This document shows, piece after piece, positions 15,139 to 38,491 of a stretch of DNA of 64,000 nt; within the stretch, counting starts at the first letter, position 1, and each line of letters starts with the position of its first letter. The DNA lies in contig JAUQPH010000004.1 of assembly GCA_030550455.1 (NCBI GenBank), positions 62,001 to 126,000 of the forward strand, read 5' to 3'. Source of the stretch: Thermoproteota archaeon (GTDB taxonomy: Archaea; Thermoproteota; Thermoprotei_A; Sulfolobales; NBVN01). Position numbers and translations under genes: made by a program. The notes below the pieces were generated by a model. The model was not told where the DNA came from, did no database searches, and saw only the letters and a list, made by a program, of their open reading frames with translations.

Positions 15139-15156
15139 TAACTTTTTTTATTTTGC
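15139..15156 (+). terminator. T-rich archaeal terminator
   Basis: A run of seven T followed by ATTTT starts about 20 bases after the symporter stop codon. Archaeal RNA polymerase terminates at such T tracts without needing a hairpin. Confidence 0.45.
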
Positions 15157-16318: not shown

Positions 16319-17389
16319 ATGCCTATCCACGATAGCCTAGTGAACGCTTTAAGTAATGTTGTTAGAAGCTTGTTCGCAAGTATCGGTGAAGTAGGAGACC
16401 TCCTAAAGTCGCTCAGGGAGGTAGAAGTTTTCGAGCTGAGGGTCCCCTCTGATTCCCCCCCTGTGGTAGCAGCTGGGGACTCTAGCTGGGCGTTAAGGAC
16501 GCACGCTATGGTTTTGGTCTACGCTGTTCAGTCAGTAGCGATCAGGGTCTCACCAGGGAGAGCTGAGTCTACAGAGCGTTTGGTTGACGCAGATGCTGGC
16601 TACTTTATTCCGTCACAACACGTTGGTGACGCTACTGCCGACGAGGTTGTAATGAGAGCTATCCAGTTTATCTCGAAGAGGCTAGAGGTCTCAGCACTAA
16701 CTAAAGTTTCTGAGGGAGCGGACATCTCCTTATTCGATGGATCTATCTTCTCCTTTCTATGGTACAGTAAGTTTCCTGAGATCCCGAGTAGCCTCAAGTC
16801 CTTTAAGAACAGACCCTCTAGGTTTAGAGACATATGGCGGGAGGTAGTCGTAGGAGTGAGGTCTATAGCTACGTCCGGAGTCATTCCTCTGTTTATAGCT
16901 AAAAGCGTTAGGAGAAGCTACTACGTAGATAGACTCTCAAGTCCAGACTTACTCCAAAAGTTAGGAGATAGAGCAAACGATTTAGTACTCATAGAGCTGA
17001 TGAGGAGGATAGGATGGCTCCCAAAAAAGGCTTTAGTGCTTGAGCCTGTCCACATATCAAGCTTTAAGGATATGCCAAGACCTCTTAACTCTCTAGACTT
17101 GGAGGACCGATCCCTCCTAGAGCCTCTCATACCCATAACGGTTACGTACGTAATCTTCAACCCGTCAGCCCATGCGTTCCAAGTCACTATTCCTGGTAAG
17201 TGGAGTCTCGAGGAGCTTGCTGAGGTCTTGTCGAGGCTCTACCCTTATTCCCACTCAGGTTACCCAGACCCTCTAAGGGTGGCACACAACTTGAGCAAGA
17301 TAAGTAACCGTGAGCTCAGGTACTTACTCCTCAAGTTGGGTGTTTCGTCGATACCTACTGGGAGGGAGCTCTTAGGTGAGTTTGTATGA
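16319..17389 (+). CDS. nurA: NurA 5'-3' nuclease
   Basis: 356 residues. NurA is a Mn2+-dependent nuclease that works with HerA to resect double-strand breaks together with Mre11-Rad50. Visible RNase H-like motifs: VVAAGDSSWALR near residue 50 (first catalytic Asp) and ISLFDGSIFSF near residue 140 (second acidic motif). First gene of a tight operon: the stop overlaps the herA start by four bases. ATG preceded by GGTGAAGCTC. Confidence 0.9.
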   Translation: MPIHDSLVNALSNVVRSLFASIGEVGDLLKSLREVEVFELRVPSDSPPVVAAGDSSWALRTHAMVLVYAVQSVAIRVSPGRAESTERLVDADAGYFIPSQHVGDATADEVVMRAIQFISKRLEVSALTKVSEGADISLFDGSIFSFLWYSKFPEIPSSLKSFKNRPSRFRDIWREVVVGVRSIATSGVIPLFIAKSVRRSYYVDRLSSPDLLQKLGDRANDLVLIELMRRIGWLPKKALVLEPVHISSFKDMPRPLNSLDLEDRSLLEPLIPITVTYVIFNPSAHAFQVTIPGKWSLEELAEVLSRLYPYSHSGYPDPLRVAHNLSKISNRELRYLLLKLGVSSIPTGRELLGEFV

Positions 17390-18984
17390 GCTTGAAGCCA
17401 ATCGGGTTGGTTGGTGAGTACTCAACACCAACCGAAGTAGACGTAAAGTCTCACTACCCGGTGTCTCCCGGGACCTACGTCTATATATCGTTTAAAGCTA
17501 GAGACCCGGTGAAAGACAAAGAAGAGGTTAGGGAAGTAGTCGGGATTGTCGGCTCAACAGTGTATAGGTCTGTAATACCAATAGTCGTTAGCCAGAACGT
17601 AGGGCTTTTCGAGAGCTACTCAAGCGACTTAAAGAGGGAGAGCTACATGAAGGTCCTGCTCGTCGCAGACATCACTGATGGCAAAGCTAAGTTCCCAACG
17701 TATCCTCCACCACCTGAAACCCCTGTATACCTCGCCCGTATAGAGCACCTCAGACCGATCTACAGCTGTGAACCTACTAGTGGTGTTAGAGTCGGCTCTT
17801 TAGTCGGGTTAGAGTCTCTCGAGATTAGAGTTAGAGTCAATTCATTAACAAAACACTTACTAATAGCTGGGACAACTGGTTCTGGTAAGAGCAACTTAGT
17901 CGCTGTACTAGCTGATAGAATAGCTCAAATAGGTGGCTCGGTAGTGATATTCGACGTTCACGGCGAATACGGAGGGCTTACAAGCGAATCCGAGGACGTC
18001 GTTGTTAGCGTTTACGATGCCCAGATAAACCTGCTTAAAGTACCGATAGGGCTTCTCGCTAACTTCATAATACCAGAGCCAGCGGCGACAAAGCAGAGAA
18101 GGATTCTGAGAAACGCTCTGAAGAAGCTAAACTCAGAGATACTCGAGCAATCCAGGAGCAAAAGTATTCCACCTGCTAAGGCTGTGGAGAAGCTTTACGC
18201 TTCCACAGAGAGTTATAAGCACGGGGGAGCACTCGATAAACCCCTCGACCCACCAGTGATGTACAGAGAGCTCCTGAAAGAGCGTATCAAGAGAGAGTCC
18301 GATGAAGGCAAGACGGTCGGAGACGTCATAGACAAGGTCGATGACTTCTTCGAGTGGCATCGGGTCAGTCTCGAGAGCCCTACTGTGAGCGAGCTGATGG
18401 GATACAGCAAGATCGTCGTGGTGGACGTGTCAGCTCTAGTAGATGACGAGAAGGACTACATGTTGAAGGTCGTGGCAGAGGACATCCTCTGGTCCCTTAA
18501 GGAGGGAGCTATTCCACCGACCCTGCTCGTCGTCGAAGAAGCCCACATATTCTTGAATCGAGAGACCAACACGCGGTCAAAGGGGGCCCTCCAGAGGTTC
18601 GTGAGAGAGGGGAGGAAGTTCGGCGGGATGCTCGCAGTGGTAAGCCAGAGACCGAGGGCTCTCGACATAGGGGTGGTTTCCCAGGTCCAGAACTTCGCGT
18701 TCCTGCGTTTAGTCCAGAAGGCTGACAGGAGCGTGCTAATGGAGCTTGCAGACATCCTAAGTGAGGAGTACGCGAACATCCTCCCATCCCTCCCACCTGG
18801 TCACGGGGTACTCATAGGGGAGTGGACGGGTTGGTACCCTGTCTACACCAGGCTGGACCTGCACAAAGGAAAGAGGGTTGGAGCTACACCGAACATCGTC
18901 GAGAGGTGGAGACGCGGGAGAGACACCATTAAAGCAGAACAGGAGGACTTCAAATCCCTAGCTAGCGAGTGGGAGGGTGGCTAA
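17386..18984 (+). CDS. herA: HerA DNA translocase/helicase
   Basis: 532 residues, hexameric FtsK/HerA-family DNA translocase that loads NurA on broken ends. N-terminal HAS-barrel region (about 1-130), Walker A IAGTTGSGKSNLVA near residue 161, Walker B LLVVEEAHIFLNR near residue 380, and an arginine-finger region RFVREGRKFGGMLAVVSQRPR. Overlaps nurA by 4 bases and mre11 by 8 bases, the usual crenarchaeal order nurA-herA-mre11-rad50. Confidence 0.93.
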   Translation: MSLKPIGLVGEYSTPTEVDVKSHYPVSPGTYVYISFKARDPVKDKEEVREVVGIVGSTVYRSVIPIVVSQNVGLFESYSSDLKRESYMKVLLVADITDGKAKFPTYPPPPETPVYLARIEHLRPIYSCEPTSGVRVGSLVGLESLEIRVRVNSLTKHLLIAGTTGSGKSNLVAVLADRIAQIGGSVVIFDVHGEYGGLTSESEDVVVSVYDAQINLLKVPIGLLANFIIPEPAATKQRRILRNALKKLNSEILEQSRSKSIPPAKAVEKLYASTESYKHGGALDKPLDPPVMYRELLKERIKRESDEGKTVGDVIDKVDDFFEWHRVSLESPTVSELMGYSKIVVVDVSALVDDEKDYMLKVVAEDILWSLKEGAIPPTLLVVEEAHIFLNRETNTRSKGALQRFVREGRKFGGMLAVVSQRPRALDIGVVSQVQNFAFLRLVQKADRSVLMELADILSEEYANILPSLPPGHGVLIGEWTGWYPVYTRLDLHKGKRVGATPNIVERWRRGRDTIKAEQEDFKSLASEWEGG

Positions 18985-20146
18985 AGTGCTCTTCCTTCAC
19001 GTGTCGGACACTCACTTGGGCTCATCGAAACCCTTGTCCGGCTCCAAGGCCCGCGAGCTCGATTTCTACGACGTCTTCGACGAGGTGGTAGACATAGCGG
19101 TCAGAGAGAGAGTAGACGCAGTTATCCACTGCGGGGATCTGTTCGATAATTACGAGCCGAGCCCAAGAACTTACTATCATACCGTTAAGTCCCTCAAGAA
19201 GCTCTCTGCCGCGGGGATACCGTTCTTGGTTATAGCTGGGGGGCATGACCAGCCTAAGCGCGCCGAGATGTCGCCGCTGAAGGTCCTCGAAGAGGTAGGA
19301 GTGGCGAAAGCCTTGGCCATTAGCGAGCCCGCTACCCACGTAGTTAGCCTGCGCAGTGGTGAGCTCGGAATAACAGCAGTGCCTTACTCACCGCCCAACG
19401 CTTTCAGCGGGTGGATCGGAAGGCTCAAGAGGCCGGAAGCCGGGAGGAAGATCCTCGTAGCTCACATAATGCTCAAAGAGCTCAATCTTCCGGAGTCTCA
19501 CGCCTCTCTAGATGAGCTCAAAGCGGTTGAGTACGACTACGTGGCTCTAGGACACTACCACATGAAGTACTCAATTAGGCGCAATAGTACTCCAATCGTA
19601 TACCCCGGCTCTACGGAGGCTCAAGATAGGAGAGAAGCGAGCGACGAGAGATTCGTGACTTTAGTCGACTTAAGCACAAGAGAGGCAGTCGTAAGCTGGG
19701 TCAAGCTAAGCAGGTTTAGGAGGTTCGTGATAGTAGAGGGGGTCAGGGACCTCGGCGACCTAGACAGAAGGCTCGCCAAGCTGGTTACGGGCGTAGACGA
19801 GAAACCCGCGATACTCTACGTCGAGTTCTCGGAGCCGGTAAAAAGGTGGGACGGAGTTAGGAGCCGACTGAACGAGCTAGTGCGCCGCGGGGTTATTCTA
19901 AACTACAAGCTATCAGCTCCTGGTATAGCGGAATCTGAGGAGCGAGTTTATGAGGACCTCAGAGAGGCACCGCTCAGCCTAGAGTCCGTGGTCTACGAAG
20001 CATCAGGAGACCCGGAGGTCGCAGAGCTCTTGCTAGAGATCATCAGGAACAGTGGAAACAGAGAAGCCGTCGAGAAGATCGTTAATGAACTACTAGAAAG
20101 AGAGAGACTCGTGGAGAAGATCGAGAAGCTGGTGAGAAAGAAGTGA
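18977..20146 (+). CDS. mre11: Mre11 double-strand-break nuclease
   Basis: 389-residue calcineurin-like phosphoesterase. Motifs: FLHVSDTHLG (DxH), IHCGDLFDNYEPSP (GDxFD), VIAGGHDQPKR, ILVAHIM, and ALGHYHMKY (HxH). The third motif is normally GNHD, or an acidic variant in some crenarchaea; here the metal-binding position is Gly (GGH). C-terminal capping and Rad50-binding region about 270-389. Start is GTG inside herA, and the 3' end overlaps rad50 by 4 bases. Confidence 0.93.
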   Translation: MAKVLFLHVSDTHLGSSKPLSGSKARELDFYDVFDEVVDIAVRERVDAVIHCGDLFDNYEPSPRTYYHTVKSLKKLSAAGIPFLVIAGGHDQPKRAEMSPLKVLEEVGVAKALAISEPATHVVSLRSGELGITAVPYSPPNAFSGWIGRLKRPEAGRKILVAHIMLKELNLPESHASLDELKAVEYDYVALGHYHMKYSIRRNSTPIVYPGSTEAQDRREASDERFVTLVDLSTREAVVSWVKLSRFRRFVIVEGVRDLGDLDRRLAKLVTGVDEKPAILYVEFSEPVKRWDGVRSRLNELVRRGVILNYKLSAPGIAESEERVYEDLREAPLSLESVVYEASGDPEVAELLLEIIRNSGNREAVEKIVNELLERERLVEKIEKLVRKK

Positions 20147-22425
20147 TAATCAGGAGAGTCGAGCTCGAGAACGTACTCTCACACGAAAAAACTGAGGTAG
20201 TTTTCTCCGATGGTATAGTATCGATAGTAGGTCCAAACGGTGCGGGTAAGTCAACTATCGTTGAAGCCATCTACCTCGCTCTGCTAGTTGATGGCAGGCC
20301 AGATATCAGAGGGGGGAAAACGGAGTTCATAGTTACCAAAGGTAAGAGAAATGGAAGGATCTCAGTGTATTTTGAGATAGGGGGAAAGAAATACATAGTT
20401 GAAAGAAAGTTAGACGTCGACAGCTCTAGTCAGGCTAAACTCTACGAAGTAAATGAAAGTGGAAGAAGGCAGATATCATCAGGAGCTCCAAGTGTAGTAA
20501 AAGAAATAGGGAGATTGCTCGACTTAGCCAACTACACCTCTAGTGAGCTACGAGATCTAATTCGCGCCACTATTTTCTCTCTTCAGGATGAGTTAACGCA
20601 GATAATCGACGTCCAGGACTCTGAGAGAAAGAAGTGGATACTCTCTCTCCTCGGACTCAGCTACCTCGAGAAGGCTTTAGACAACGTTAAGGATGTTATT
20701 AGAGACAAGAAGATCGGCCTTGACGGTGAACTAAAGAGCTTGAAGAAAGTCCTCGAGGAGGCTAAGAATAACTTGAAGAAGCTTGAGAAGGAGCTCAGTA
20801 GTGCTGAAGATAGACTAAGTAAGCTCTTAAAAGAAAAAGAAGTTCGAGAAAGAGAGGTTAAAGAACTAGATGAGAAGCTAAACCTAGTCAGGAGCGCTAT
20901 AGATACAGTAATCGAGTTAAGGAAAGTGTTGGTCTTGAGGAAGCTCGAAGATCTTGAGGGCGTTGTAAGGCGTCTAAGTATTTTGAAAGACTGGAACCCT
21001 CAATCGTACGACTGGATAGCCAACGAGATAGCAAACCTAAGGAATAACCTTCGTAGAGTCGACAACGAGCTAAGGGAATTTCTTGAGAAGGCTTCGCAGA
21101 CCTTCGAAGTACCTATAGACAAGCTTGAGGAACTACGTAGCGACATCGAGAGGAGGATAAGAGCCCTAAAAGAGCAAGAAGGAGGGTACAGGAAGCACTT
21201 AGAGTTGCTCAGGGATTTCCTCAACAAGTTTGAGCTCAGTGATAGGTGCCCCGTCTGTGGGTCGAGGATCGACAGTTCAGAGAGAGTTAAAAAGCACTTA
21301 GTAGAAGAAGCCTCGAACATTGAAGAGAAATTAGAGGAAGTGACAAGGGAACTCAAGGATCTAGAGGGAAAGTTGCGGCTTATTGACAAAACTTTGAGGA
21401 ATCTTAGAGAGCTCCTCCCTAAGAAGAAGAACATTGAGGAGAACCTCGGAGAGAAGGAGAGAGAGCTAGAGCAGCTGGAGATGAAAGCTAAAGAATTTTG
21501 TACCTCGGTGGGCATAGAGTTTCACGACGTCGATGAGTGTATCCAGCAACTCAAGAAGCTGCGAGAGGAATTTACTAGAGCTGAGAACGAGCTCGATGTG
21601 TTGAGGAGTCAGGTAAGAAGTGAGCCTACTCATTCCTTTGCGGACCTTGAAGAGTTGTTCAGTAAGTTAGTACTAGTACTAAATAAGTTGGGGTTAAGAC
21701 CCCTATCCGCACTATCGATAGAGCATCTCAATCAACTGAGAGACGGGGAACTGGAGAAACTCAGGCGGAATCTTGAAAGCGATCTGAGGGTAGCGCAGGA
21801 GAAACTAAGCCGTCTAAGTAGTGAGATAGAAGGGCTTAAGGGGTCTATCGTAAAGACAAAGGAACTCATTGGTGGACTAAAGGTAGACATCGAGAAATAC
21901 GAAAGAGAGATAAGAGATGCCGAGCGAAAGAGTAAGGTGCTCGAACTATTAGGAAGCTTTAGTGAGAGGTATTTAGGCAAAGATGGAGAGATAGCCAAGA
22001 GGTTGACGAAAGCTGTAAGAGAGGGGCTGGAGAAAAGGGCTAACCGAATACTGAGTAAGCTCGAGCTACCCAATATCGCCATAAACGACGAATTCCAGAT
22101 CTTCGTCAAAGTCCCGGAGGGTGAGGTACCGATAAAAAACGCTAGTGGGGGTGAGAGAGTCGGGGTTTCTATAGCTCTCAGGCTGGCTCTAGCCGAGCTA
22201 GTTATGGGGAGGTCTCCTACGACTCTGATACTTGACGAGCCGACAGTATACCTAGACTCCGAGAGGAGGGGGTCGGTGTTCGACATCATAAAAGAGCTGA
22301 GTAAGTCCCTCAGGCAGCTCATAGTCGTTACACACGATGACACTATAATCAACATATCCGATAGAGTAATTCGAGTCGAAAAAGCCGGTGGTGTTAGTAA
22401 GGCGGTCCCGGAGGAACCGGCATAG
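20143..22425 (+). CDS. rad50: Rad50 ATPase of the Mre11-Rad50 complex
   Basis: 760-residue SMC-like ATPase. Walker A GPNGAGKSTIVEAI near residue 29, long heptad-rich coiled coil (about 170-640), zinc hook RCPVCGSR near residue 370 (CxxC), ABC signature NASGGERVGVSIALR near residue 666 and Walker B LILDEPTVYLD near residue 700, followed by the H-loop VTHDD. Slightly shorter than the roughly 880 residues common in archaea, the difference lying in the coiled coil. GTG start overlapping mre11. Last gene of the operon. Confidence 0.95.
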   Translation: MIIRRVELENVLSHEKTEVVFSDGIVSIVGPNGAGKSTIVEAIYLALLVDGRPDIRGGKTEFIVTKGKRNGRISVYFEIGGKKYIVERKLDVDSSSQAKLYEVNESGRRQISSGAPSVVKEIGRLLDLANYTSSELRDLIRATIFSLQDELTQIIDVQDSERKKWILSLLGLSYLEKALDNVKDVIRDKKIGLDGELKSLKKVLEEAKNNLKKLEKELSSAEDRLSKLLKEKEVREREVKELDEKLNLVRSAIDTVIELRKVLVLRKLEDLEGVVRRLSILKDWNPQSYDWIANEIANLRNNLRRVDNELREFLEKASQTFEVPIDKLEELRSDIERRIRALKEQEGGYRKHLELLRDFLNKFELSDRCPVCGSRIDSSERVKKHLVEEASNIEEKLEEVTRELKDLEGKLRLIDKTLRNLRELLPKKKNIEENLGEKERELEQLEMKAKEFCTSVGIEFHDVDECIQQLKKLREEFTRAENELDVLRSQVRSEPTHSFADLEELFSKLVLVLNKLGLRPLSALSIEHLNQLRDGELEKLRRNLESDLRVAQEKLSRLSSEIEGLKGSIVKTKELIGGLKVDIEKYEREIRDAERKSKVLELLGSFSERYLGKDGEIAKRLTKAVREGLEKRANRILSKLELPNIAINDEFQIFVKVPEGEVPIKNASGGERVGVSIALRLALAELVMGRSPTTLILDEPTVYLDSERRGSVFDIIKELSKSLRQLIVVTHDDTIINISDRVIRVEKAGGVSKAVPEEPA

Positions 22426-22593
22426 AGAAATCGATAGAGGTTCGAGTACGCAGCCTAGTGCCCCTCACATAGAGATCGTAGTCAGCATCCAGGCCCCATA
22501 CGTGAACTTTGCTATAGTTTCCTAACAAAAACTAGGGATTAAACAAAACGAGAGCATAAAGTAAAGCTATTAAGAAATAAACGAGCACTATAC

Positions 22594-22671: not shown

Positions 22672-22792
22672 CACCCAGGGGAGGCGATGGTTTGAAGAGC
22701 CGTCGTTTCACGACTATCCCTCGCAGTCATGATGCGTTTTTATGTAGAGTAGCAACTCTTAATAGGTTTGATAATAGTTGATGTAGTTCGAG

Positions 22793-26875: not shown

Positions 26876-26936
26876 GGAGATTTGGCGCCAACTATTTAAT
26901 AAGGTTAGGTTTTTGTAAAATTATAAAAGTAAATCG

Positions 26937-28127
26937 TTGTACTCTCAGCTGGGCGGAACTAGAATGAAAAAGAAACGGAGCTTAGCTCTAACATTAGTTG
27001 TTCTAACCCTATCTGTTTCAGTAATCTACGTACTAAACTTACCTCAGCCTGAACTTAATGGAACCAACCTTGCAGTAAGCTACTGGCATCAATACGTCAT
27101 GGAGAATTATAGACCTGAGCCAATAAACCCAGCTGAGTTCGACTGGCACCCTCCTGAGCACTTCATTAGGAATGTTCCGTGGATTAGTTATAGGAAATCT
27201 TACTGCGCCTCAACATGCCTTCAGATGATAGCATATATGTATGGCGTTATAGAACACATAGGCTACTTCAACTTCATCACGTGCTTCACATATGGTGCCT
27301 ACCTTGGTAGGATGGGTGGAACGCTCTTCTTTATACCGGGCTCAGACCCCATAGCCGGGCTCGCAAGGTCCTCAAAGTACCTCGGCTTCAGGTATAGGAT
27401 GCTCGTGACAGCGGATAAAGATCTCTTCCTAAAGGCGGTCCGTTACTTAATATACAAGGATCTACCAGTAATCCTGCCTGTGAACGCCTCAAGGCTTTAT
27501 GGTGGTTTCTTCTCCCCGCATTTCGTGCTAGCCGTAGGATACAGAGGCGATGAAATATACATTTATGAGCCAGTTATGGATATAGAAGGCATCCGATATG
27601 AAGAAAGAGGCATTCCCATAAGGGCCGAGACCCTAGCAAAAGCTGTAATGGAGATGATTAGGGGCATGGGCTACCCAGTAGCTTGGAACTATGCTCTCAT
27701 ATACTACACACCTAAAGGCGAAATGGAAAAGGATTTTAGGGAGGCGCTTAGAGATTGCGCAGAGCTCCAGATCGGGATGAAATTCGGAGGGGCTACCTCC
27801 GCTGTATTTACTGGCGCACAAGCCCTCGAGGCGCTAGCTAAAGCCATTGAAGACGGCAAAATAAGTCCAGAAATGGTTAACGTAGGGCTCAATATGGCAA
27901 TAGTATACAGAAGAGATAACGCAAACTTCCTTAGGTCAGCATTTCCAGGAGTACCTAAAATATTAGAGGCTGCGAGCATGCTTGAGAAAGCAGCCAGCAT
28001 CTACGAAGAGGTCATCGAGATTCTCAAGATGGGATACACCATGGAGATAAGAGGTAAGGTCGCAGGGAAGCTACGTGAAGCTGCGAACTACGAAAGGGAA
28101 GTAGGTCGCCTATTGGCCTCGCCTTGA
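26937..28127 (+). CDS. Membrane-anchored C39/papain-like cysteine peptidase-like protein
   Basis: 396 residues. A K-rich N-terminus (MKKKRS at internal Met10) and one hydrophobic segment (about 14-33) suggest a signal anchor with the rest outside the cell. SYRKSYCASTCLQMIAY near residue 90 has the Cys of a papain-like fold preceded by a helix start, FFSPHFVLAVGYRGDEIYIYEP near residue 190 has the His and a downstream acidic residue, as in C39-like and BtrH-like domains. The C-terminal 140 residues are helical and unmatched. Divergent from the ABC exporter operon; together they could export and process or trap peptides, which is inference. Confidence 0.55.
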   Translation: MYSQLGGTRMKKKRSLALTLVVLTLSVSVIYVLNLPQPELNGTNLAVSYWHQYVMENYRPEPINPAEFDWHPPEHFIRNVPWISYRKSYCASTCLQMIAYMYGVIEHIGYFNFITCFTYGAYLGRMGGTLFFIPGSDPIAGLARSSKYLGFRYRMLVTADKDLFLKAVRYLIYKDLPVILPVNASRLYGGFFSPHFVLAVGYRGDEIYIYEPVMDIEGIRYEERGIPIRAETLAKAVMEMIRGMGYPVAWNYALIYYTPKGEMEKDFREALRDCAELQIGMKFGGATSAVFTGAQALEALAKAIEDGKISPEMVNVGLNMAIVYRRDNANFLRSAFPGVPKILEAASMLEKAASIYEEVIEILKMGYTMEIRGKVAGKLREAANYEREVGRLLASP

Positions 28128-28130
28128 GTA

Positions 28131-28292
28131 ATGCTTAGTGAGGGATGCGACGAATGGTTCTATTTCGTAAAGTGTAGTGTTATAAAGTACAGAACGAAGG
28201 ATACAGCTCTCTACTCACTAGGAAGAGACAAAGAGAAGATCAGGCACCTCCACGGAAAGAGGGTCTACACGCTAATCATAGCAGGAGAATAG
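28131..28292 (+). CDS. Small ORF of 53 aa, unknown
   Basis: ATG lies three bases after the stop of the peptidase-like gene. The product contains KYRTKDTALYSLGRDKEKI and ends HGKRVYTLIIAGE; the tail resembles the KxVYxLII ending of small archaeal AbrB-like proteins, but the match is weak. Not in an annotated family I recognise. It could be the end of a truncated gene. Confidence 0.35.
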   Translation: MLSEGCDEWFYFVKCSVIKYRTKDTALYSLGRDKEKIRHLHGKRVYTLIIAGE

Positions 28293-28514
28293 CATCAAGC
28301 AATACAAACCTATATAGGGGCTGAACCCTTTAACATATGGTTGGTAGCTAAACTACTATCTGGCGTTGAGTAGGAGTTCATGACTCCTAACAATTAACAG
28401 TTATAGGATAAAAGTACCGCAGACACTAATACTTAAGGTATTATGCAACTTTATACGTAGATCTTAAGTTCGTTTCAAAGCGTATAACAGTTATTTAAAC
28501 TATTTGATAAGCGT

Positions 28515-28814
28515 CTAATCATGTCTACTTTGTGGAAGTATCAAGCATTTTGTCGTATTCTTTATCCATCCCCAATTAAGTACTAAATGAATTATCGTTA
28601 ATACTAAGAATAAAATACTTGCTACTACATGTATGTTCTCCCAGACACCCCTATTAAATCCTAGGAATGTATTACTAGTTAGAAATGAGCCGCGGACTCG
28701 TTCGTGAGGTAGAACTAGCCAGAGCGCGAATCCCGAGATGTATACCAACACTCCAGTGATGAGCAGAAGAACAAAATTAACATAACACACTACGAGTTTA
28801 AACGGCTTACCCAT
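28515..28814 (-). CDS. DUF4405-like small membrane protein
   Basis: 99 residues with two hydrophobic helices (about 8-32 and 60-82). The layout of TM helix, loop with NRGVWENIHVV, then SILFLVLTIIHLVLNWGWI follows the DUF4405 family, distantly like cytochrome b membrane subunits with His pairs (here H62 and H77, possible haem ligands). Function unknown. Confidence 0.65.
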   Translation of the reverse strand: MGKPFKLVVCYVNFVLLLITGVLVYISGFALWLVLPHERVRGSFLTSNTFLGFNRGVWENIHVVASILFLVLTIIHLVLNWGWIKNTTKCLILPQSRHD

Positions 28815-29067
28815 GTTGCTGAACCTTTAGGTTATAATGCTAACTAAAGTTAATAGATTTAGCTGTACTGCATTATCTCTCCTTAAGACCTCATAATAGG
28901 TATTGCGAATAAACTCGTTTATGAAATCGTGAGTGGCTGTATGCTTCGCTTCCTGGAAACTAAACTCCAAACTACGTAATAAGAGAAGACGCAGGAAATA
29001 CGATTCATATTAAAGCTTATTTAGTGTAGTCCTTATATGGAGGAGAGTTAGTTGTGGTGGGTACTAA

Positions 29068-29466
29068 ATGAGGGATGAGGCTTTAAGGTGGTTTGATGAG
29101 GCTTTATGGGATCTTGATACAGCTAGAATCCTACATAGGGAGAAGAGGTTTAATGCTGCTGCTTTCTACTCTCACCAGGCGGCTGAAAAGGCCTGTAAGG
29201 CACTTCTCTACAACGTTAATGAGGCTCCATGGGGGCACAGCGTTAGAGAGCTCCTCGCACGGTACTATAATAGACTCGGTGAAACTCCTCCAAACGAGCT
29301 TATGACTTACGCGAGAGAATTAGATAGGCACTATATACCGTCTAGGTATCCGAATGCGCATCCAGCTGGAACACCTCACGAAGCCTACGACGAAGAGACT
29401 TCGAGAAGAGCTCTGGAAGCAGCTGAGAGAGTGATTCAATTTGTCAAAAACGTACTTAGATTATGA
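29068..29466 (+). CDS. HEPN-domain protein
   Basis: 132 residues. N-terminal half LDTARILHREKRFNAAAFYSHQAAEKACKALL region is the standard HEPN helix pair; RELDRH near residue 92 fits the Rx4-6H RNase motif. Overlaps the nucleotidyltransferase gene by 26 bases, the typical HEPN-MNT toxin-antitoxin arrangement, where the HEPN RNase is inhibited by AMP transfer from the MNT partner. ATG preceded by GGTGGGTACTAA. Confidence 0.88.
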   Translation: MRDEALRWFDEALWDLDTARILHREKRFNAAAFYSHQAAEKACKALLYNVNEAPWGHSVRELLARYYNRLGETPPNELMTYARELDRHYIPSRYPNAHPAGTPHEAYDEETSRRALEAAERVIQFVKNVLRL

Positions 29467-29860
29467 AGGATTATCGGAAGTCGTTAAGAGGATTTTAAGT
29501 AGTTTTAAAACATATGCGGTGATACTTTTTGGTTCTCGTGCTAGAGGAGATTATAAGCCGTGGAGTGATTATGATGTATTGGTAATAGCTGAATTTAGAG
29601 AGAGATACCTAGACAGAATAGGAAATATTTTAGAGTTAGTAAGCAACATAAACATAAACGTAGAACCCCACCCATACACTCTCGATGAAGCTACCGAAAT
29701 GCTTAAGAAGGGGAATCCAATAATTGTCGACGCGCTTTCGGAAGGTATAATCCTATATAGTAGAGAGGAGTTTAAGGAACTTCTCAAACTTTATGAAGAA
29801 CTTCTGAGAAAAGGACTTAAAAAATCAGAAACCTCAGTAATCGTACCACCCACTACCTAG
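29441..29860 (+). CDS. MNT-type minimal nucleotidyltransferase
   Basis: 139 residues. Catalytic motif ILFGSRARGDYKPWSDYDVLVI near residue 30 (GSxARG-x-SDxD) and a third acidic residue region INVEPH around 68-73. Partner of the overlapping HEPN gene; probably adds AMP to a Tyr of the HEPN protein as antitoxin, by family knowledge. TTG start chosen because homologues begin shortly before the helix leading to GSRARGD. Confidence 0.87.
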   Translation: MSKTYLDYEGLSEVVKRILSSFKTYAVILFGSRARGDYKPWSDYDVLVIAEFRERYLDRIGNILELVSNININVEPHPYTLDEATEMLKKGNPIIVDALSEGIILYSREEFKELLKLYEELLRKGLKKSETSVIVPPTT

Positions 29861-30007
29861 CTCAAGAGAAAGATAAACAGGGAGAAAAGCTATATCAACT
29901 CTCCGTAGTATGGATAACCCCATGACTACTATAATAGGTCCAGGATCTGTCGATGTTTACATAGTTTATAAGACTAGATGAAGTGGGGAGGTAAGAAGAT
30001 ATATTCC

Positions 30008-31219
30008 TTAACTAAAAGTGTTTAATGCCCTATTAACTGAGGCAACAGCGTTTACTAATCCATAGCCGTAGATTTCGTCATATCCAGAACTCCCTAAGTC
30101 TGTGGCAGTTGTTATTAGGATTCCCTTCACCTGTGTTGGTGATAGCTTATCTTTCCCGTCGGCAATTCTTATTGCTTGCATTAGAGCTACGATTGCTGAG
30201 ACGTGTGGACACGCCATACTGGTTCCGCTTAAGTACGCGTACTTGTTTCTAGGCCATGTAGAGAGTATGTTTACCCCTGGAGCGACAAGATCCGAGTTCT
30301 TGTTACTCCAGCTCGGGACACTTAAGTTCTGGTCTATGGCGCCTACAGCTATGACTTCACTGTAGCAGGCCGGGCATGAAGGTGTTGAAGCACCCTCGTT
30401 TCCCGCAGCAGCAACTAGAACCACATTGTAGCTGTGCGCATAAAGTACTGCGTTGTAAAGTGTTTGAGAGTGAGGTCCCCCGAGAGACATCGAGATCACA
30501 TCGGCATCATCACTCGTGCCAGGGGTGTTGTCAGGTCCCTTAGTAGCTTCTACTATCCCCTTAGCTACGTCACTCACGTAACCACCACCGTTGGCGTTAA
30601 GAACTCTTACAGCATATAAGACTGCTTTTGGTGTAACTCCGGCTACTCCGAAGCTGTTCAATCTAGCGGCTATTATTCCAGCTACGTGTGTTCCGTGACC
30701 GTTCGGGTCATCGCAGTTTTTCAAACTAGTTCCTCTATAGAACGTCTTAGTGTTTCTTAATGAAACGACACACCAGTCTATAGAACCGTAAAGATCTGAA
30801 TGAGTGTAGCTTATTCCAGTATCTACTACAGCAACTCTGATGGTTGTTTGATATCCATAAGCAGCATCGCCGTAAGTAGTATTTAGAGCCCAAACTTCAG
30901 GCGCTTCAACTACTTCCACGTTCCACTGAACCTCACTAGATGTTTTGATAGACTTGTCTTCTTCAACATACTTGACAAACGAGAGAGATTTTAAATGCCC
31001 TAATGAGTAGGGAGGAACTTCAGTAACTAACGCGCTTATTTCAGGAATTTCAAGCACTATAGAGCCGAGACTCTCGATAACTGACTTAGCGCGTACGTAA
31101 TTACCGCTTAAATCAACACCAATAATGACTCTAATACTTGCTGAATAAGCCTCAGCAAACATTGGGAGAAGCACGGACGTTAAGATAAACACTACGGCTA
31201 AGCAAAGAAGTTCCCTCAT
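30008..31219 (-). CDS. Secreted subtilisin-like serine protease (S8)
   Basis: 403 residues. Signal peptide (hydrophobic about 4-24, ending AEAYS), I9-type propeptide about 28-95, then the catalytic domain: Asp in VAVVDTGISYTHSDL near residue 130, His in NGHGTHVAGI near residue 175, oxyanion Asn in AAAGNEG near residue 270, Ser in SGTSMACPH near residue 333. Exported and self-processed to the mature enzyme by family knowledge. A strong A/T-rich promoter lies upstream. Confidence 0.95.
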   Translation of the reverse strand: MRELLCLAVVFILTSVLLPMFAEAYSASIRVIIGVDLSGNYVRAKSVIESLGSIVLEIPEISALVTEVPPYSLGHLKSLSFVKYVEEDKSIKTSSEVQWNVEVVEAPEVWALNTTYGDAAYGYQTTIRVAVVDTGISYTHSDLYGSIDWCVVSLRNTKTFYRGTSLKNCDDPNGHGTHVAGIIAARLNSFGVAGVTPKAVLYAVRVLNANGGGYVSDVAKGIVEATKGPDNTPGTSDDADVISMSLGGPHSQTLYNAVLYAHSYNVVLVAAAGNEGASTPSCPACYSEVIAVGAIDQNLSVPSWSNKNSDLVAPGVNILSTWPRNKYAYLSGTSMACPHVSAIVALMQAIRIADGKDKLSPTQVKGILITTATDLGSSGYDEIYGYGLVNAVASVNRALNTFS

Positions 31220-31670
31220 ATTGACACCTCGACCGTAGTAGCAGCTACAAAGCTTATATATGTATATATATCAAATTACACAAATTATACCAAATAGTAC
31301 TCGAATAACTTCAAAACAGCAGATTACGACATCCAGCATAGTTAGCACAAGTTAGTACGCTAAAAGAAAACCACAATGAAGACCCAGTAGAGATATATCC
31401 GAACAGAAGTTTCATAATTCTGTAGGTTGTCCACCATCTTGAGTAAGGTCTTGGAAATACAGTAGGTAGATAGCAGTACCCGCAAGAGTTAAGTGGAGAC
31501 ATGACTCGACTATCGCATCGCTTAGTACGGCTTACGTATGGACAGTAAAGAGGGTTTATATTCAACGGAAGGGCGGTCTTATGTCTGGATAACGCGGCAC
31601 GCTAGAATTAAAATTTAGACTACTTAAAGAGGGGTCTTCTACGACATTGAAGCCATCGCAGAGTAAGAGA
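31220..31670. other. Intergenic, protease promoter and nothing else recognised
   Basis: Contains the TATA-rich promoter of the protease. A minus-strand 84-codon frame (31311-31565) has irregular composition with many Ser, Tyr and Trp, no family match and no ribosome-binding site, so I do not call it. Nothing else is seen. Confidence 0.45.
31250..31272 (-). promoter_or_regulatory. TATA-rich promoter of the subtilisin gene
   Basis: On the minus strand, a TATATATACATATATAAG segment lies about 32-50 bases before the protease ATG, the position expected for an archaeal TATA box with a short leader containing GAGGTG. Confidence 0.55.
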
Positions 31671-33084: not shown

Positions 33085-33615
33085 TCAGTAGTCTAACCCC
33101 TCTATGTTAATAAACCCCTCTCGAAAGTAATGTTTTACTTCTCTAACTTCGCTCACTAGGTCTGCCATATTTTTGATTGTTGATGGTACGTATCGACCTG
33201 TGACTACAGCGTGGAGGTTCTTGTTTTTAACAAACCTCTTTAGGGCTCTAGTAGCAGTTCTCTCATCAACTAGACCCATGTGGACAGCAAGGCCGAGCTC
33301 GTCGAAAACCACGAGCCTAGGTCTAAAGGTCCTTAGGAGGTTAGGTAGTACGTAAGTTAAGAAGGCATAGGAGGTAGCCATATTCTCGGAGGCCACCTCG
33401 TCTTCGTATACACCAGGTTTAACGAACTCTCTAGTTCCTAGTACGTACAGCTTGAGCGGGAGCTTGAGCTTACTTAGTAGCAGTAGCTCACCACTATCAC
33501 TAGACTTCATGAATACCGCTATAACCACTCTCCACCCACGGCCTAGAGCTCTAACGACAGCTCCGTAAGCAGCAGACGTCTTCCCCTTACCCTTCCCGAA
33601 GAATACGAGTAGCAA
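33085..33615 (-). CDS. cobO: Corrinoid adenosyltransferase CobA/CobO type
   Basis: 176 residues. P-loop FFGKGKGKTSAAYG near residue 6, Walker B LVVFDELGLAVHMGLV near residue 100, and VVTGRYVPSTIKNMADLVSEVREVKHYF, all typical of ATP:cob(I)alamin adenosyltransferases. Makes adenosylcobalamin from reduced corrinoid and ATP. TTG start. It lies three bases after the M28 peptidase gene; the minus-strand gene group 33085-35574 is probably one transcript. Confidence 0.88.
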   Translation of the reverse strand: MLLVFFGKGKGKTSAAYGAVVRALGRGWRVVIAVFMKSSDSGELLLLSKLKLPLKLYVLGTREFVKPGVYEDEVASENMATSYAFLTYVLPNLLRTFRPRLVVFDELGLAVHMGLVDERTATRALKRFVKNKNLHAVVTGRYVPSTIKNMADLVSEVREVKHYFREGFINIEGLDY

Positions 33616-33618
33616 GCA

Positions 33619-35340
33619 TTAACCCCTAGCTACGTAGCCAACGCTCTCAGCTAACTGAACTAGTTCCTCAAAGACTTCCCTAGGAACCTCGACCCCTAGC
33701 TCTCCGGAGACTTCGAAGCGAAGCCTCTCGAGGTCTTTGCTCTCACTCCTGAGGTAGACTCCGGCAATAGCTAGAGCTGTCATGGCGTATCTAAACCTAT
33801 CTGATAGCTCCCTAACCTTATCTAAGACTGCTGGACCAAGCTTATACCTTAAGTACTGAGCGGTAAGATATCCCTCTAAAGCCAGCTTAAGGGACGGACC
33901 TCCCGTCGGTGGCTCGACGCTCTTTAATCCGATATCGATGCCCAGCTCCCTAGACTTCCTCCAGTATAGGTACTGTCTAGCGTCTAGCACTAAACCGGTG
34001 GTCCTGATAGTGTCTAGCCCGTAGACCATGTGTAAATACGGGTAGAGCCTAGAGTCTTCAACCTCTAGAACTGCCGATAAAGCAGCTACTCCAATGATGT
34101 AGACGAGCCTTGGGTTCATCTTGTCTAAGGTGTCGCTACTCGTATGGTAATACTTATCGGGCCACTGGTTCAGCATAACTGCCGGTATCCCAAGTGATAC
34201 GTAGACGTCGTGGTCACTCCCAGTCTCGTAGTTAACTAGAGAGAACCGTATGAGTGGAAACTCTGCTGGAGACGAAAAGCTGCCCGACTTCGGAAGAGCT
34301 ACTAGTAGTTTGCTATATACTGAGGCTTCTAGCTCGCCCATGAGGACTATCGGGGGTCTAACTACGTTTAGAACTGACCCGGTTTTACACTGCCTCTCAC
34401 CGATCATGTCGAGGTTTACCGCTCCACGCACCTTCCTTCCTTCACTCAAAACTACCTTAAGATACCTAGCTGTTCCGTGGTGCTCGGGCACCCACACGAA
34501 CTTTAATGACCTCTTGACGGATATCCTTCCCTCTCTAACTGCTAGAGCTAGCGATTTAGCAGCACTCAGTACTCCAACAGACCCACTGACGTTATCGTTA
34601 ACCGTAGCGCCGGGGTGGCAGTAGTGAGCAACTATGTGGTACTCATCACCGAAATCACCTATAGACGCCTCAACGACTCTAGCGTATGCTTCACTCCTGT
34701 AGCCAGACTTAACGTAACCTTTTACTATAACCTCTTCACCCTTCTCTATACTACTTATCATTTCTTCGGCGACTTCTCTCGGTACTGTGAGGGCAGGTAC
34801 CTTCATGTACTCCAGCTCGCTTTGAGTCGGAAATATGCCAAAGTATGGGTAGGACCCTATCGGTGCGTTCCTCCTAAAGACTAAAAGTGCTTTAGCACCA
34901 ACTTCGACAGCCTTCATATACGTTCCAAATCCCCAATCCGATGTAAGGATGACGCTATCTCTACACTGAGCTACGTGCTTGTAGGTCGGAGCGTAGCAAA
35001 CCCTGCCCTCGAATTCTCCTGGGGGTGAGTGAGCTACTACAGCAGTCCAAGCATGCTTGAGTGATGACACCACTTTTCTCTTGGGTTTAACGACTTCAGC
35101 GAATCCGTCGACTACAAACCATCCGACGGCTGGAGCTGATGTAGGTGGAGACTCATATCCGTAAGGTAGGTCGTAGACTCTTACGCTTAAACCCCAATCA
35201 GTAAGGACATCGCGAATGAAGTTTCCAGCTTCCTCAAGTCCTGGGCTTCCCTGAATTCTGTGAAACCTGGAAAGCTCTTCAGCTAGTAACTCTACTTCAG
35301 CTCTCGAGAAGTACTCCGTGAGGACACTAAGTATTGTCAA
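33619..35340 (-). CDS. M28-family zinc aminopeptidase-like protein
   Basis: 573 residues. Di-zinc peptidase motifs: VAHYCHPGATVNDNVSGSVG (His and bridging Asp) near residue 238, VWVPEHHGTA (catalytic and metal Glu), VNLDMIGE (Asp) and YYHTSSDTLDKM (final His). A PA-like insert lies near 110-200 (GRVCYAPTYKHV ... ALLVFRRNAPIGS). The 130-residue C-terminal part is helical and unmatched. No signal peptide is visible, so it is probably intracellular. TTG start; gap of three bases to DUF2283 upstream. Confidence 0.85.
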   Translation of the reverse strand: MTILSVLTEYFSRAEVELLAEELSRFHRIQGSPGLEEAGNFIRDVLTDWGLSVRVYDLPYGYESPPTSAPAVGWFVVDGFAEVVKPKRKVVSSLKHAWTAVVAHSPPGEFEGRVCYAPTYKHVAQCRDSVILTSDWGFGTYMKAVEVGAKALLVFRRNAPIGSYPYFGIFPTQSELEYMKVPALTVPREVAEEMISSIEKGEEVIVKGYVKSGYRSEAYARVVEASIGDFGDEYHIVAHYCHPGATVNDNVSGSVGVLSAAKSLALAVREGRISVKRSLKFVWVPEHHGTARYLKVVLSEGRKVRGAVNLDMIGERQCKTGSVLNVVRPPIVLMGELEASVYSKLLVALPKSGSFSSPAEFPLIRFSLVNYETGSDHDVYVSLGIPAVMLNQWPDKYYHTSSDTLDKMNPRLVYIIGVAALSAVLEVEDSRLYPYLHMVYGLDTIRTTGLVLDARQYLYWRKSRELGIDIGLKSVEPPTGGPSLKLALEGYLTAQYLRYKLGPAVLDKVRELSDRFRYAMTALAIAGVYLRSESKDLERLRFEVSGELGVEVPREVFEELVQLAESVGYVARG

Positions 35341-35343
35341 GTC

Positions 35344-35574
35344 TTACACCTCGATGCCAAACCTCTTTAGTAGGTTGTAGATAGTGATCCCGATAACCTT
35401 ATTGTCCTTGATTCTATAGCCTACGTCATTCTCTACTAGAATGGCTTCCTCAGCTTCTTCGGATCCCTCACCGAAGACTATATTGAGCGTGTCGGTATTT
35501 CTATCGTAGTCTACTAAAACCTTGTCAATGTTTTCGAGAACGAACACTCTCCTGCTCTCCGACACGTAGACCAC
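35344..35574 (-). CDS. DUF2283 small protein
   Basis: 76 residues; VDYDRNTDTLNIVFGEG followed by an acidic run, then VGYRIKDNKVIGITIYNL, the hallmark of DUF2283, which often sits beside toxin-antitoxin or restriction genes. Here it begins a minus-strand operon with the M28 peptidase and CobO. Role unknown. Confidence 0.8.
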   Translation of the reverse strand: MVYVSESRRVFVLENIDKVLVDYDRNTDTLNIVFGEGSEEAEEAILVENDVGYRIKDNKVIGITIYNLLKRFGIEV

Positions 35575-35622: not shown

Positions 35623-37482
35623 CTAACGATGGCGAACACTCTCGCTATAGTTTCCCCTCATTGTGAGTAGAGTAGCAGTATCGAAGTGACCCAAGAGAGG
35701 TTCAGATGTCTTAAGTATAGTATATCCGGTTCTAACAACGTGAGACTTGACGAGAGCTACTCGATCTGGTGCTAGCTCGAGTATTCTAGCGTACTCGTTG
35801 GGTATGTCCAGCATTTCGAGATACTCCTTCTCACTTCTAAAAACCACCTTCGTGTTTGCTAGCTGTATCACGATTCTGTGTACGTCTTTGGGTGAGTGAG
35901 TACTGAAGACTATTCCCATACCTCTAGACCTACCTAACCTAGCTATTCTCGATATGAAGTCGGCTAGTAATTCTACTTCTTCTGCTGAAGTACCCTCAGA
36001 CGGGAAGAACCTATGGGACTCGTCAAGTACTACGACAGCCGGTCTCGTAGTAGGACCTCCGGACTTCTTCCACTCGTATAAACTCCTTAGGACTTCGTAA
36101 GCTATCAAATTAGCGATTAGGAAGTGTAACCCTCGAGAGACAGCGTAGTCGAGGTCTAAAACTATTGGGCTATAAAGCACGTTACTGAGGAGGTCGGGGC
36201 TTGGAATACCTACTCGAACACCGTTTAAGCTTACGTCAACGCACTCGGAGCTAGCTATGAAACTTACTGCTCTCTCTATACTATCAAACGTGCTTCGGTG
36301 TATCTTTAGTGTCCTCTCTATATCTCTTCTCCTCTCTGCTAGAGCAGCCGATAGATGTGTGAAATTGGATACCTGCCCAATCTCTTGTTCGATGTAGTCG
36401 ATGACGTGGTGTAGGTATATCTTAGCTTGCCTCGAAAAAATCGGGAGCGCATCTAGGTGCTCAAATAACTGCGTGTAGCTAAGGGCAACTGGGACAACGT
36501 CTATCTTGACCTCACCCCAATCACCCAGCCTGACGAGAGCCTCAGCCATTATTTGTCCAGAGCTTTTGGTAACGGTTACGGCTACTTCCGGGTTGATACC
36601 GTGATATACTCTCGCAATAGCTGAAAGTCTCTCCTCTATGTAGTCTACAACAGCTCTCGAGAAGTCTCTAGTTGTGCGATTGACCGGTAGGAGAATCGTC
36701 ATCTTATCGAGTTTCTTCAGAGAGCCTTTAGAGGTAGCTAAGTACACTTTAGAATCAGCTGGTTCAGCAGTAGGTGGCAGAGCTATTTGTGCGTAATCCC
36801 CAGCAGCATCCACTACCAGTACTAAAACCTCGGGGTAGTGATTAACCAAATACCACACTAAGTTCTTAACGAACGTCGTCTTTCCGGACCCGGTAGTCCC
36901 TATGACTAAGACGTGTTTGAATACCTCCTTGAGGGGAAGTTTAACGGGTATATCTCCACCGGCAATCGGTGTAGAGCCTGTGTGTAAGTGTCCCAAAACT
37001 ATGCCGTCTTCCGGGAGCCCGACTACTCTCGATACGAGCCCAGTGTTGCGAGGTAGTACTACGGGTGACTGAGGTTCGACCGGTGACATATAGGGCAAAC
37101 CGCTCTCATCTAAGAGCGGGATCGTTTCTATTACTATGGGAGCGAGTAAGCCTTCCGGGGATACTCCTAAGCTAACTGATAGAGGAGTTTGAAGGTCTGA
37201 GGCCACGTCAGACCTCTTTATTGATGTGACTCTAAGCCCCACGGCTTTTACTGTTCTAATGTCGACGGCTACTAAGAGGTTTCCTACGTCGAAGGCGTTT
37301 GTATACTCGTAGTACACCTGAGGCGCTACCTCAACGTACACCCTGCTGAAGCTATCCGAAGAAGATGAGAGAGCTCTCCTACTCACGTACCCTACTACTA
37401 TCCCTAGCTCTTTAGCCTTAGAGTACGCATCAGATATGAGGGAGGATATCCTGCTTACTGGGCTACCCATATGTAAGCTCAC
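35623..37482 (-). CDS. Second HerA-like DNA translocase (HerA2)
   Basis: 619 residues of the HerA/VirB4-like (DUF87) ATPase family. Walker A VIGTTGSGKTTFVKNL near residue 192, Walker B VVVLDESHRFFPSEG near residue 480, then ARLGRSRGMGIVFSTHSP, the sensor and arginine-finger region. N-terminal HAS-like region about 20-130. A roughly 150-residue insertion between the Walker motifs makes it larger than the first HerA. Its start overlaps the 3' end of a NurA-type gene by 20 bases. It is a second HerA-NurA module without Mre11-Rad50. Confidence 0.85.
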   Translation of the reverse strand: MSLHMGSPVSRISSLISDAYSKAKELGIVVGYVSRRALSSSSDSFSRVYVEVAPQVYYEYTNAFDVGNLLVAVDIRTVKAVGLRVTSIKRSDVASDLQTPLSVSLGVSPEGLLAPIVIETIPLLDESGLPYMSPVEPQSPVVLPRNTGLVSRVVGLPEDGIVLGHLHTGSTPIAGGDIPVKLPLKEVFKHVLVIGTTGSGKTTFVKNLVWYLVNHYPEVLVLVVDAAGDYAQIALPPTAEPADSKVYLATSKGSLKKLDKMTILLPVNRTTRDFSRAVVDYIEERLSAIARVYHGINPEVAVTVTKSSGQIMAEALVRLGDWGEVKIDVVPVALSYTQLFEHLDALPIFSRQAKIYLHHVIDYIEQEIGQVSNFTHLSAALAERRRDIERTLKIHRSTFDSIERAVSFIASSECVDVSLNGVRVGIPSPDLLSNVLYSPIVLDLDYAVSRGLHFLIANLIAYEVLRSLYEWKKSGGPTTRPAVVVLDESHRFFPSEGTSAEEVELLADFISRIARLGRSRGMGIVFSTHSPKDVHRIVIQLANTKVVFRSEKEYLEMLDIPNEYARILELAPDRVALVKSHVVRTGYTILKTSEPLLGHFDTATLLTMRGNYSESVRHR

Positions 37483-38491
37483 CTGGAAATACTGCTAAAA
37501 CACCCTTCGACTTCGCTGCTAGCTCCACTAGCTCTACCAACTTTTTCACTAAGCTCTTAGATACCCTATCCGCAACGTACAGCCCGTAGGGTACGGAGAG
37601 AGCTAAACTAGAGCAGGACGAGTAAACCATAGACAAGAGGTCCACAAGTTTTGATGACTCTAGCTGCTCCGTTACGGCACACGGTATCTCGACTCTACCT
37701 AGAGTATACGTGTACCCGATCCCCCCAGAAGTGATGTAGAAAGAGCAGACTTTAAGCTCGTTTTGAGCGGTTATAGGTCCCACAGCAATAGGCTTACCCT
37801 CATGAACAGACTCCCATGTCGGAATCTCAGTTCCAATCCTTTTGACAAAGCCTATCACAACCTTACCCTCGCTTATTGCTTTACTAATGTAGTGAGCTCT
37901 CTTACTGTTTAAGAGGGCTACTTCGTCCACCCAGTACCCGGGCTTAGGATAAGGTCTTAAAGTAGGAATCAGGGGTCCGTCAATAAGTACGTACTTAAGC
38001 CTGGATCCTACTGCGATACCGAGGCCGTATAGCTCTAAAGCTAGCCTAACGTCAGATTCGAGAATAGACGGCTCTAAGTGTGGATCTTCTTCATACGGAA
38101 TCCCGAGCTCAATGTATCTATCGGTTATCCCGCGAAATGGCTCTCTCAACCTCTTCAGCGACGATATAAAGGGCGGCCCCAGGTATGACTCGGCTGTAAT
38201 GGACGGGTAGACCGCTAGACCTGCTGGGGAGACTACCGATAATCCGGCTATGCCCACATAGTTACCCCCGATGTATAGGGTAGCTGAAGCAGCATCTACT
38301 GCCACAGAGTTAGTAATGAGGTCTGAGTAGTCAACGCTCTTCAGAGTTAGTACCTTAATACCGTCGCTCCCCGCTTCATCTATTTGCTTAAGACTGACTC
38401 CACTTTTAGTAATGCTTGCCTCAACTAATTCCTCTAAGAGCTTTACTAGCGTTATTTCCCCATGCCAGTTACTTAACTGGATTAATAACAC
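37463..38491 (-). CDS. Second NurA-domain nuclease (NurA2)
   Basis: 342 residues. NurA motifs: NSVAVDAASATLYIGGNYVG near residue 63 (first catalytic Asp) and LKYVLIDGPLIP near residue 168 (second Asp), with Glu-rich helices between. Overlaps the second HerA gene by 20 bases, so the products are probably coupled as a nuclease-translocase pair. Clearly diverged from the NurA at 16319. Confidence 0.8.
   Translation of the reverse strand: MLLIQLSNWHGEITLVKLLEELVEASITKSGVSLKQIDEAGSDGIKVLTLKSVDYSDLITNSVAVDAASATLYIGGNYVGIAGLSVVSPAGLAVYPSITAESYLGPPFISSLKRLREPFRGITDRYIELGIPYEEDPHLEPSILESDVRLALELYGLGIAVGSRLKYVLIDGPLIPTLRPYPKPGYWVDEVALLNSKRAHYISKAISEGKVVIGFVKRIGTEIPTWESVHEGKPIAVGPITAQNELKVCSFYITSGGIGYTYTLGRVEIPCAVTEQLESSKLVDLLSMVYSSCSSLALSVPYGLYVADRVSKSLVKKLVELVELAAKSKGVLAVFPGELTYG

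Follow-up and report, generated by a model that had tools for sequence, protein, structure and literature searches.

A second NurA-HerA pair of Thermoproteota, probably ancient and vertically inherited, encoded apart from mre11 and rad50

The window analysed here, a stretch of 64,000 nucleotides from a Thermoproteota archaeon of the Sulfolobales (assembly GCA_030550455.1, contig JAUQPH010000004.1, positions 62,001 to 126,000), carries two pairs of genes for the nuclease NurA and the translocase HerA. One pair belongs to a complete nurA1-herA1-mre11-rad50 operon on the forward strand (16319..22425), where HerA and NurA are recognised by PF01935 and PF09376 and are accompanied by an Mre11-type phosphoesterase and a Rad50-type ATPase. 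The other pair, hereafter pair 2, has no adjoining mre11 or rad50 and lies on the reverse strand, where the open reading frames (ORFs) of nurA2 (37463..38491, 342 amino acids) and herA2 (35623..37482, 619 amino acids) overlap by 20 bases (37463..37482). A first-pass annotation of the window had described both the operon and the overlapping pair, and both descriptions are borne out. The host genome comprises 1.65 Mb in 17 contigs and is 87.8% complete. Our reading, to which we give a probability of about 0.62, is that pair 2 represents a second NurA-HerA machine of Thermoproteota, ancient in origin, passed on vertically and encoded separately from mre11-rad50, with a core function in the removal or trimming of double-stranded DNA (dsDNA) ends.

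The distribution of pair 2 is largely that of a gene set inherited with its lineages. Of 60 relatives, 43 have a HerA2 match with an E value of 1e-5 or better, which is strong (1e-25 or better) in 34; HerA2 is present in all seven genomes of the genus and in 21 of the 31 of the family. At 1e-30, matches occur in 122 of 197 genomes in a class sample and in 87 of 397 in a phylum sample. The absences mostly follow genus: 11 of the 14 genera with at least two genomes are uniform (for example, 0/5 in g10 and 0/3 in g12), and the three mixed genera are g17 together with g5 and g7, where completeness is 59% or 82% in the genome that lacks HerA2. Strict conservation in relatives, which the first-pass annotation had named as the sign of a housekeeping paralogue, is thus seen throughout the genus (7/7) and gives way, beyond it, to these 11 uniform and three mixed genera. 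A scan of viral contigs with HerA2 found no relative. Moreover, HerA2 shows 70-77% identity to its counterparts in six genus relatives versus 58-64% for HerA1 (higher in 6/6 comparisons), and NurA2 shows 48-64% versus 49-55% for NurA1 (higher in 5/6, two of the NurA2 ORFs being N-terminally shortened by ORF picking). Pair 2 is therefore better conserved than pair 1 within the genus, the opposite of what is expected of a fast-evolving defence gene, and it does not look like an accessory defence module.

Phylogenetic trees of both proteins set pair 2 apart from the mre11-linked pair. The trees are quick searches with supports from the Shimodaira-Hasegawa-like approximate likelihood ratio test only, in which long branches were flagged, and fragments, duplicates and distant matches were removed from the HerA rows by a hand-made list. 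In the HerA tree of 138 proteins, all 92 HerA2 rows fall on one side of a branch with support of 99 and, save one long-branched row, split into a half of 50 rows that includes the window (support 94) and a half of 41 rows (support 92). The family labels on the window's half, which cover 32 of the 50 rows and eight families (five with more than one row and three with a single row), require seven changes, the minimum. The NurA tree likewise separates NurA2 from NurA1, with support of 100, and the two halves need two changes on it. Distances in the NurA and HerA trees are correlated (r = 0.87 over 83 pairs, with none of 999 permutations as high), so NurA2 and HerA2 diverge together. Since HerA2 and NurA2 form their own clades, the separate role that the first-pass annotation had thought plausible is still plausible.

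Gene order around HerA2 is also well kept in the relatives of the window. We refer to the window's half of the HerA tree minus the f7/f10 branch as V_main; this group is not a clade, and its 43 loci include near-copies (L043, L044 and L052; L068 and L072). At 40 of these loci, nurA2 lies on the same strand and overlaps herA2 or ends no more than 50 bases upstream of it, the overlap being present at 35. The order nurA then herA is found elsewhere at 8/12 loci of group C_sulfB, 7/14 of C_thermoCR, 5/6 of C_thermo2, 3/6 of V_f7f10 (the f7/f10 branch), 0/8 of C_sulfA and at the single locus L055 (1/1). In C_sulfA (L091, L152, L153, L158 and L160-L163), where this order has been lost at every locus, nurA lies on the opposite strand at five loci and downstream at two, and was not found at one. 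The other neighbours of pair 2 vary by family and include, for example, a glucosamine synthase-type gene, a CDP-alcohol phosphatidyltransferase and a thioesterase.

Both proteins show the folds and most of the motifs of their families. HerA2, an FtsK-HerA type translocase, scores well above the curated cut-off of PF01935 (52.7 versus 23.2 bits); NurA2 falls slightly below that of PF09376 (20.2 versus 21 bits), which is exceeded by other NurA2 proteins of the same family, for example those of G054 (104.9 bits) and G059 (104.2 bits). The predicted model of HerA2 (mean predicted local distance difference test score, pLDDT, 91.8) has Sulfolobus HerA (SsoHerA, 4d2i) as its top match, with Z 28.2 and a root-mean-square deviation of 4.1 over 429 aligned residues. 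Neither the NurA2 alignment nor NurA1 retrieved a meaningful match from the PDB by sequence, so a fold search was used for NurA2, which also has no NCBIfam or PADLOC match at E 0.1. Its predicted model (pLDDT 86.7) matches the Sulfolobus NurA structure 2ygk at a Foldseek E value of 1.8e-6, and VIA ranks 1-6 are all NurA chains with Z of 13.2-15.1, the best being T. kodakarensis NurA at 15.1.

The motor motifs of HerA2 are invariant across 86 sequences, both in Walker A (GTTGxGK, G195-T202, 36877..36900), of which G195, T196, T197, G198, G200 and K201 are invariant and T202 nearly so, and in the Asp-Glu of Walker B (D487-E488, 36019..36024). For NurA2, a nuclease of the RNase H fold, the predicted active site is D-E-D-D. 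Between 83 NurA2 and 25 NurA1 sequences (a set in which the window's NurA1 is counted twice), D66, E153, D171, K217 and Y252 are common save a few gaps and one Leu at position 252. The first catalytic Asp, D66 (38294..38296), is Asp in 82 of the NurA2 proteins, with one gap, and in all 25 NurA1; E153 (38033..38035) is Glu in every sequence of both sets; and D171 (37979..37981) lies within DGP in 83/83 NurA2 and within DGS in 25/25 NurA1. The last position, D308 (37568..37570), is Asp in 80 of the 81 NurA2 proteins having a letter there (one His, with gaps in two others) and His in 22 of the 25 NurA1. NurA2 thus does not show the NurA1-type marks of DGS and a C-terminal His; as three of the 25 NurA1 rows carry Asp at this last position, however, His is not a defining mark of all NurA proteins. 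The last active-site position varies between Asp and His among RNase H-fold nucleases, for example in Argonaute, and we therefore read D308 as an active variant, one that would retune the NurA2 nuclease without killing it.

The first-pass annotation had also pointed to a large insertion between the Walker motifs of HerA2, and it is real: the two motifs are 292 residues apart in HerA2 versus 222 in HerA1 of the window. This stretch (36025..36876), about 70 residues longer than that of HerA1, is predicted to contain three strands (residues 299-332). The window is no exception in having it, as the median distance is 295 in V_main (43 copies) and 292-339 in most other HerA2 groups; the median in C_sulfB (240) comes close to that of HerA1 (224, from the 17 of 31 copies that could be scored by the Walker pattern), and third-pair HerA proteins have a median of 245 (8 copies). 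The HB domain is situated between the Walker motifs of HerA, and the insertion would enlarge HB, the DNA-entry part of the ring. The solved HerA-NurA complex is described as holding incoming DNA by this domain (PMC12977600).

Among the known systems close to pair 2 are the archaeal NurA-HerA pairs linked to Mre11-Rad50 (4d2i, 2ygk and 9x1l of T. kodakarensis), with which it shares the folds, the motor motifs and the D-E-D residues, and it keeps the order nurA-herA of the window's own operon; it differs from them in the lack of adjoining mre11 and rad50, in DGP for DGS and in Asp for the last His. The T. kodakarensis complex has been reported as solved with six HerA and two NurA subunits and as cleaving both strands of dsDNA (PMC12977600). 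By analogy with the solved relatives, six HerA2 subunits would assemble into a ring around incoming dsDNA and, judging from homology to T. kodakarensis, may drive it towards a dimer of NurA2 for cleavage of both strands. A standing role of this kind is favoured by the core-like behaviour of the gene set in the window's group; most likely, pair 2 would remove or trim linear dsDNA ends, such as those of broken forks and of leftover or foreign linear DNA.

The relatives of HerA2 include many that stand beside loci of clustered regularly interspaced short palindromic repeats (CRISPR). We scored a locus as CRISPR-linked when it had an array (at least four repeats, within 7 kb, called by a custom repeat finder) or, within 6 kb, a gene belonging to one of five clusters of cas-type neighbours; Pfam named the one tested member in each of four of these clusters, and one was labelled cas5 by look, with no Pfam match. 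None of the 43 V_main loci is linked, with flanks shorter than 6 kb at 13 of them (30 being full on both sides) and at 10 of the 47 other loci, and no array or cas-type neighbour is found at the 16 loci of the window's family. There is also no linked locus in C_thermo2 (0/6), C_sulfA (0/8) or L055 (0/1). The 25 linked loci among the 47 outside V_main are distributed over C_thermoCR (14/14), C_sulfB (7/12) and V_f7f10 (4/6), and 13 of the 14 C_thermoCR loci have a neighbour in a single cluster whose tested member is Cas_APE2256. The locus groups were drawn after arrays had been seen beside f7 and Thermoproteales loci (families f24 and f32 we take to be Thermoproteales), so this cut is not blind; the figures independent of the grouping are 4/49 linked loci for the window's half of the tree, all four in f7, 21/41 for the other half and 0/16 for the window's family. 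The linked state requires eight changes on the HerA tree, which indicates that linkage was gained or lost repeatedly. CRISPR loci would have recruited such related copies, probably on more than one occasion.

A CRISPR-associated nurA-csm6-herA cluster has been described in Pyrobaculum, Thermoproteus and Vulcanisaeta, with its inheritance reported as vertical and with three or more pairs, one of them CRISPR-linked, in most Pyrobaculum (PMC3396285). The linked branch C_thermoCR matches this published Thermoproteales cluster. The Thermoproteales CRISPR-linked clade (14 rows, support 100) sits in the 41-row half of the HerA2 rows, whereas the window sits in the 50-row half. The two have in common the HerA2 clade, the NurA2 marks and the encoding of NurA and HerA together; they differ in that the window pair has no APE2256-type gene or array nearby and in the length of HerA2 (619 amino acids in the window versus 535 in L175, a copy of the CRISPR-associated kind).

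The first-pass annotation had suggested a defence function by comparison with SIR2-HerA and DUF4297-HerA systems. The likeness lies in a HerA-type motor adjoining an effector gene, and the structures of these systems match the HerA2 model with Z of 17.5-25.5; the closest solved HerA, however, is that of Sulfolobus (Z 28.2), the partner in the window is NurA, and five window neighbours have no SIR2 or DUF4297 match in PADLOC. A PADLOC search at E 1e-10 with 140 proteins encoded beside pair 2, drawn from 28 of the 43 V_main loci, matched only homing endonuclease models, with one member each. The presence of HerA2 in 60 genomes shows no association with RAMP (both in 15, HerA2 only in 19, RAMP only in 10, neither in 16; P = 0.79) or with Cas1 (15, 19, 15 and 11, respectively; P = 0.43). 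Of the 60 relatives, 15 have ring nuclease genes (PF09651); in genomes with both, none of these genes comes within 19 kb of HerA2 on a shared contig. With NurA as the partner, no linked V_main locus and a presence independent of RAMP and Cas1, a defence system of the SIR2-HerA or DUF4297-HerA kind is not supported; the CRISPR linkage at the 25 other loci nevertheless keeps the idea of defence alive.

That idea survives as the main rival to a core function in dsDNA-end removal, namely that pair 2 is an antiviral or CRISPR partner acting in trans, which shreds linear viral dsDNA or makes spacer fragments and is not encoded at a CRISPR locus. RecBCD and AddAB make fragments for spacer uptake in bacteria. 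Besides the CRISPR-linked relatives within the HerA2 clade and the Cas_APE2256-cluster gene beside most C_thermoCR copies, several observations are in its favour. The best PADLOC match of the window's HerA2 is the 'Type III coevolved' HerA model PDLC01055 (183.5 bits, compared with 604.5 bits for L175). The window's genome holds Cas10/Cmr2, Cas1 and an array of 89 repeats on another contig (contig 4; L143, 1-20000), away from pair 2. When the count is restricted to genomes with completeness of 90% or more, there is a lean towards co-occurrence of HerA2 and RAMP (odds ratio 3.25, P = 0.11), and an antiviral role for HerA-NurA has been proposed (PMC12977600). Against it are the unlinked V_main and window-family loci, the lack of association with RAMP or Cas1 over the 60 genomes, and the slow evolution of pair 2, which is unlike that of an arms-race gene. 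Among the 34 genomes with HerA2, some of which are incomplete, 19 have no RAMP match and 19 have no Cas1 match. We consider a trans-acting antiviral role possible, yet unlikely. A lesser rival is DNA exchange, in which pair 2 would prepare DNA for transfer between cells on the donor side of the Ced/Ted systems, as in the NurA-TdtA transjugation of Thermus. A second NurA-HerA-type pair, TdtA with a NurA-like protein beside a repair-type HerA in the same genome, is reported to be required for DNA donation in Thermus thermophilus (PMC5365140), and NurA-HerA has been proposed by the Ced/Ted authors as the source of the single-stranded DNA substrate (PMC9905601). HerA2, however, scores only 24.8 bits against CedB and 36.3 bits against CedD, and TdtA, which we liken to HerA2 by its description, is said there to lie on a mobile element (PMC5365140), whereas the window pair is genus-wide; such a role is improbable. 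Less probable still is a third rival, in which pair 2 would be a redundant paralogue that has no role of its own and is being lost. The genome does have a third NurA-HerA pair on contig 11, and some lineages do without pair 2; but the motor residues are invariant in the 86 HerA2 proteins, the 83 NurA2 proteins retain the catalytic residues apart from gaps and a single H308, and 11 of the 12 genus comparisons show higher conservation for pair 2 than for pair 1.

Several points weigh against an ancient and vertically inherited core machine. The f7 lineage, which lies inside the window's half, is CRISPR-linked at 4/4 loci, and g17, a genus of f7, is mixed at 99% completeness (G036 without and G055 with HerA2). 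Near-complete genomes without HerA2, such as G015, G022, G026 and G028, indicate that pair 2 is not indispensable in every lineage. The supports of 94 and 92 for the two HerA2 halves fall below the 95 mark, and the root of the NurA tree adjoins the window's family, so that any order of early branching would be tentative. The change of Asp for His could weaken the NurA2 nuclease. TdpAB is an anti-phage system, and its structure (8wfd), in which a NurA-fold chain and a HerA-fold chain form one complex, is among the structural matches; the structural likeness has Z of 12.7 for NurA2 and 24.7 for HerA2, below those of the archaeal NurA and HerA structures. Our literature search found no experiment on the HerA2-NurA2 group.

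Downstream of pair 2 in the window, on the same strand, are genes for a DUF2283 protein (35344..35574, PF10049), which may be co-transcribed with it, an M28 peptidase (33619..35340, PF04389) and CobO/BtuR (33085..33615, PF02572). Among the six genus relatives fetched, this block stands behind pair 2 in four, the fifth stops within the M28 gene and the sixth does not show the block. We dropped M28, DUF2283 and CobO as functional partners because they are not found beside the pair outside the genus. The first-pass annotation had placed pair 2 in a context different from that of the operon, which is right as to these three downstream genes but is partly the outcome of a local rearrangement: in four of the six relatives, herA2 and the mre11-linked herA share a strand and are separated by 6-7 kb (in the other two they are on separate contigs), which suggests that their opposite orientation in the window is of local origin. 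Compared with these four relatives, the block of the mre11-linked operon (13300-31600 of the window) is flipped relative to pair 2. Within this rearranged segment, the ORFs from 22793 to about 31200 find no counterpart at E 1e-5 in those stretches of the genus relatives that were fetched, and an archaeal phage integrase (PF16795, 37.1 bits) is encoded at 22793-23722, directly after rad50.

The third pair of the window's genome (G000) lies at L132:2911-5578, where HerA3 (PF01935, 58.5 bits) and NurA3 (PF09376, 30.3 bits) are encoded by overlapping genes in the order herA-nurA. It is also evident that family f1 contains two very different HerA1-type proteins (L102-L114 versus L125, L127, L128 and L131), which show 32-35% identity to HerA1 of the window and are each preceded by a NurA-like gene. 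Five genomes (G015, G026, G028, G030 and G057), which are 81-99% complete, have no NurA match by PF09376 or by the NurA2 alignment; this is at odds with PMC4641729, which states that NurA and HerA are present in every known thermophilic archaeon.

The wider picture that we tentatively propose, and that as a whole is rather doubtful, is that HerA2-NurA2 would constitute a separate crenarchaeal D-E-D-D lineage predating the split of Sulfolobales and Thermoproteales, a general degrader of dsDNA ends that would feed both chromosome care and CRISPR memory. At least two and perhaps three lineages may have recruited it to their CRISPR loci, with the window's group as the free-standing ancestral form supplying CRISPR in trans. 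We found no paper describing the free-standing group as a lineage, although our search covered few subscription papers and is thus weak evidence of novelty. The DGP motif and the Asp in place of His provide simple marks for recognising the lineage. The role of archaeal HerA-NurA is disputed, and recent work on T. kodakarensis is reported to argue against end resection and for dsDNA destruction (PMC12977600). A free-standing pair that evolves more slowly than the mre11-linked one within this genus, and that has CRISPR-located relatives, could let repair, degradation and immunity be separated by comparing the pairs within one host.

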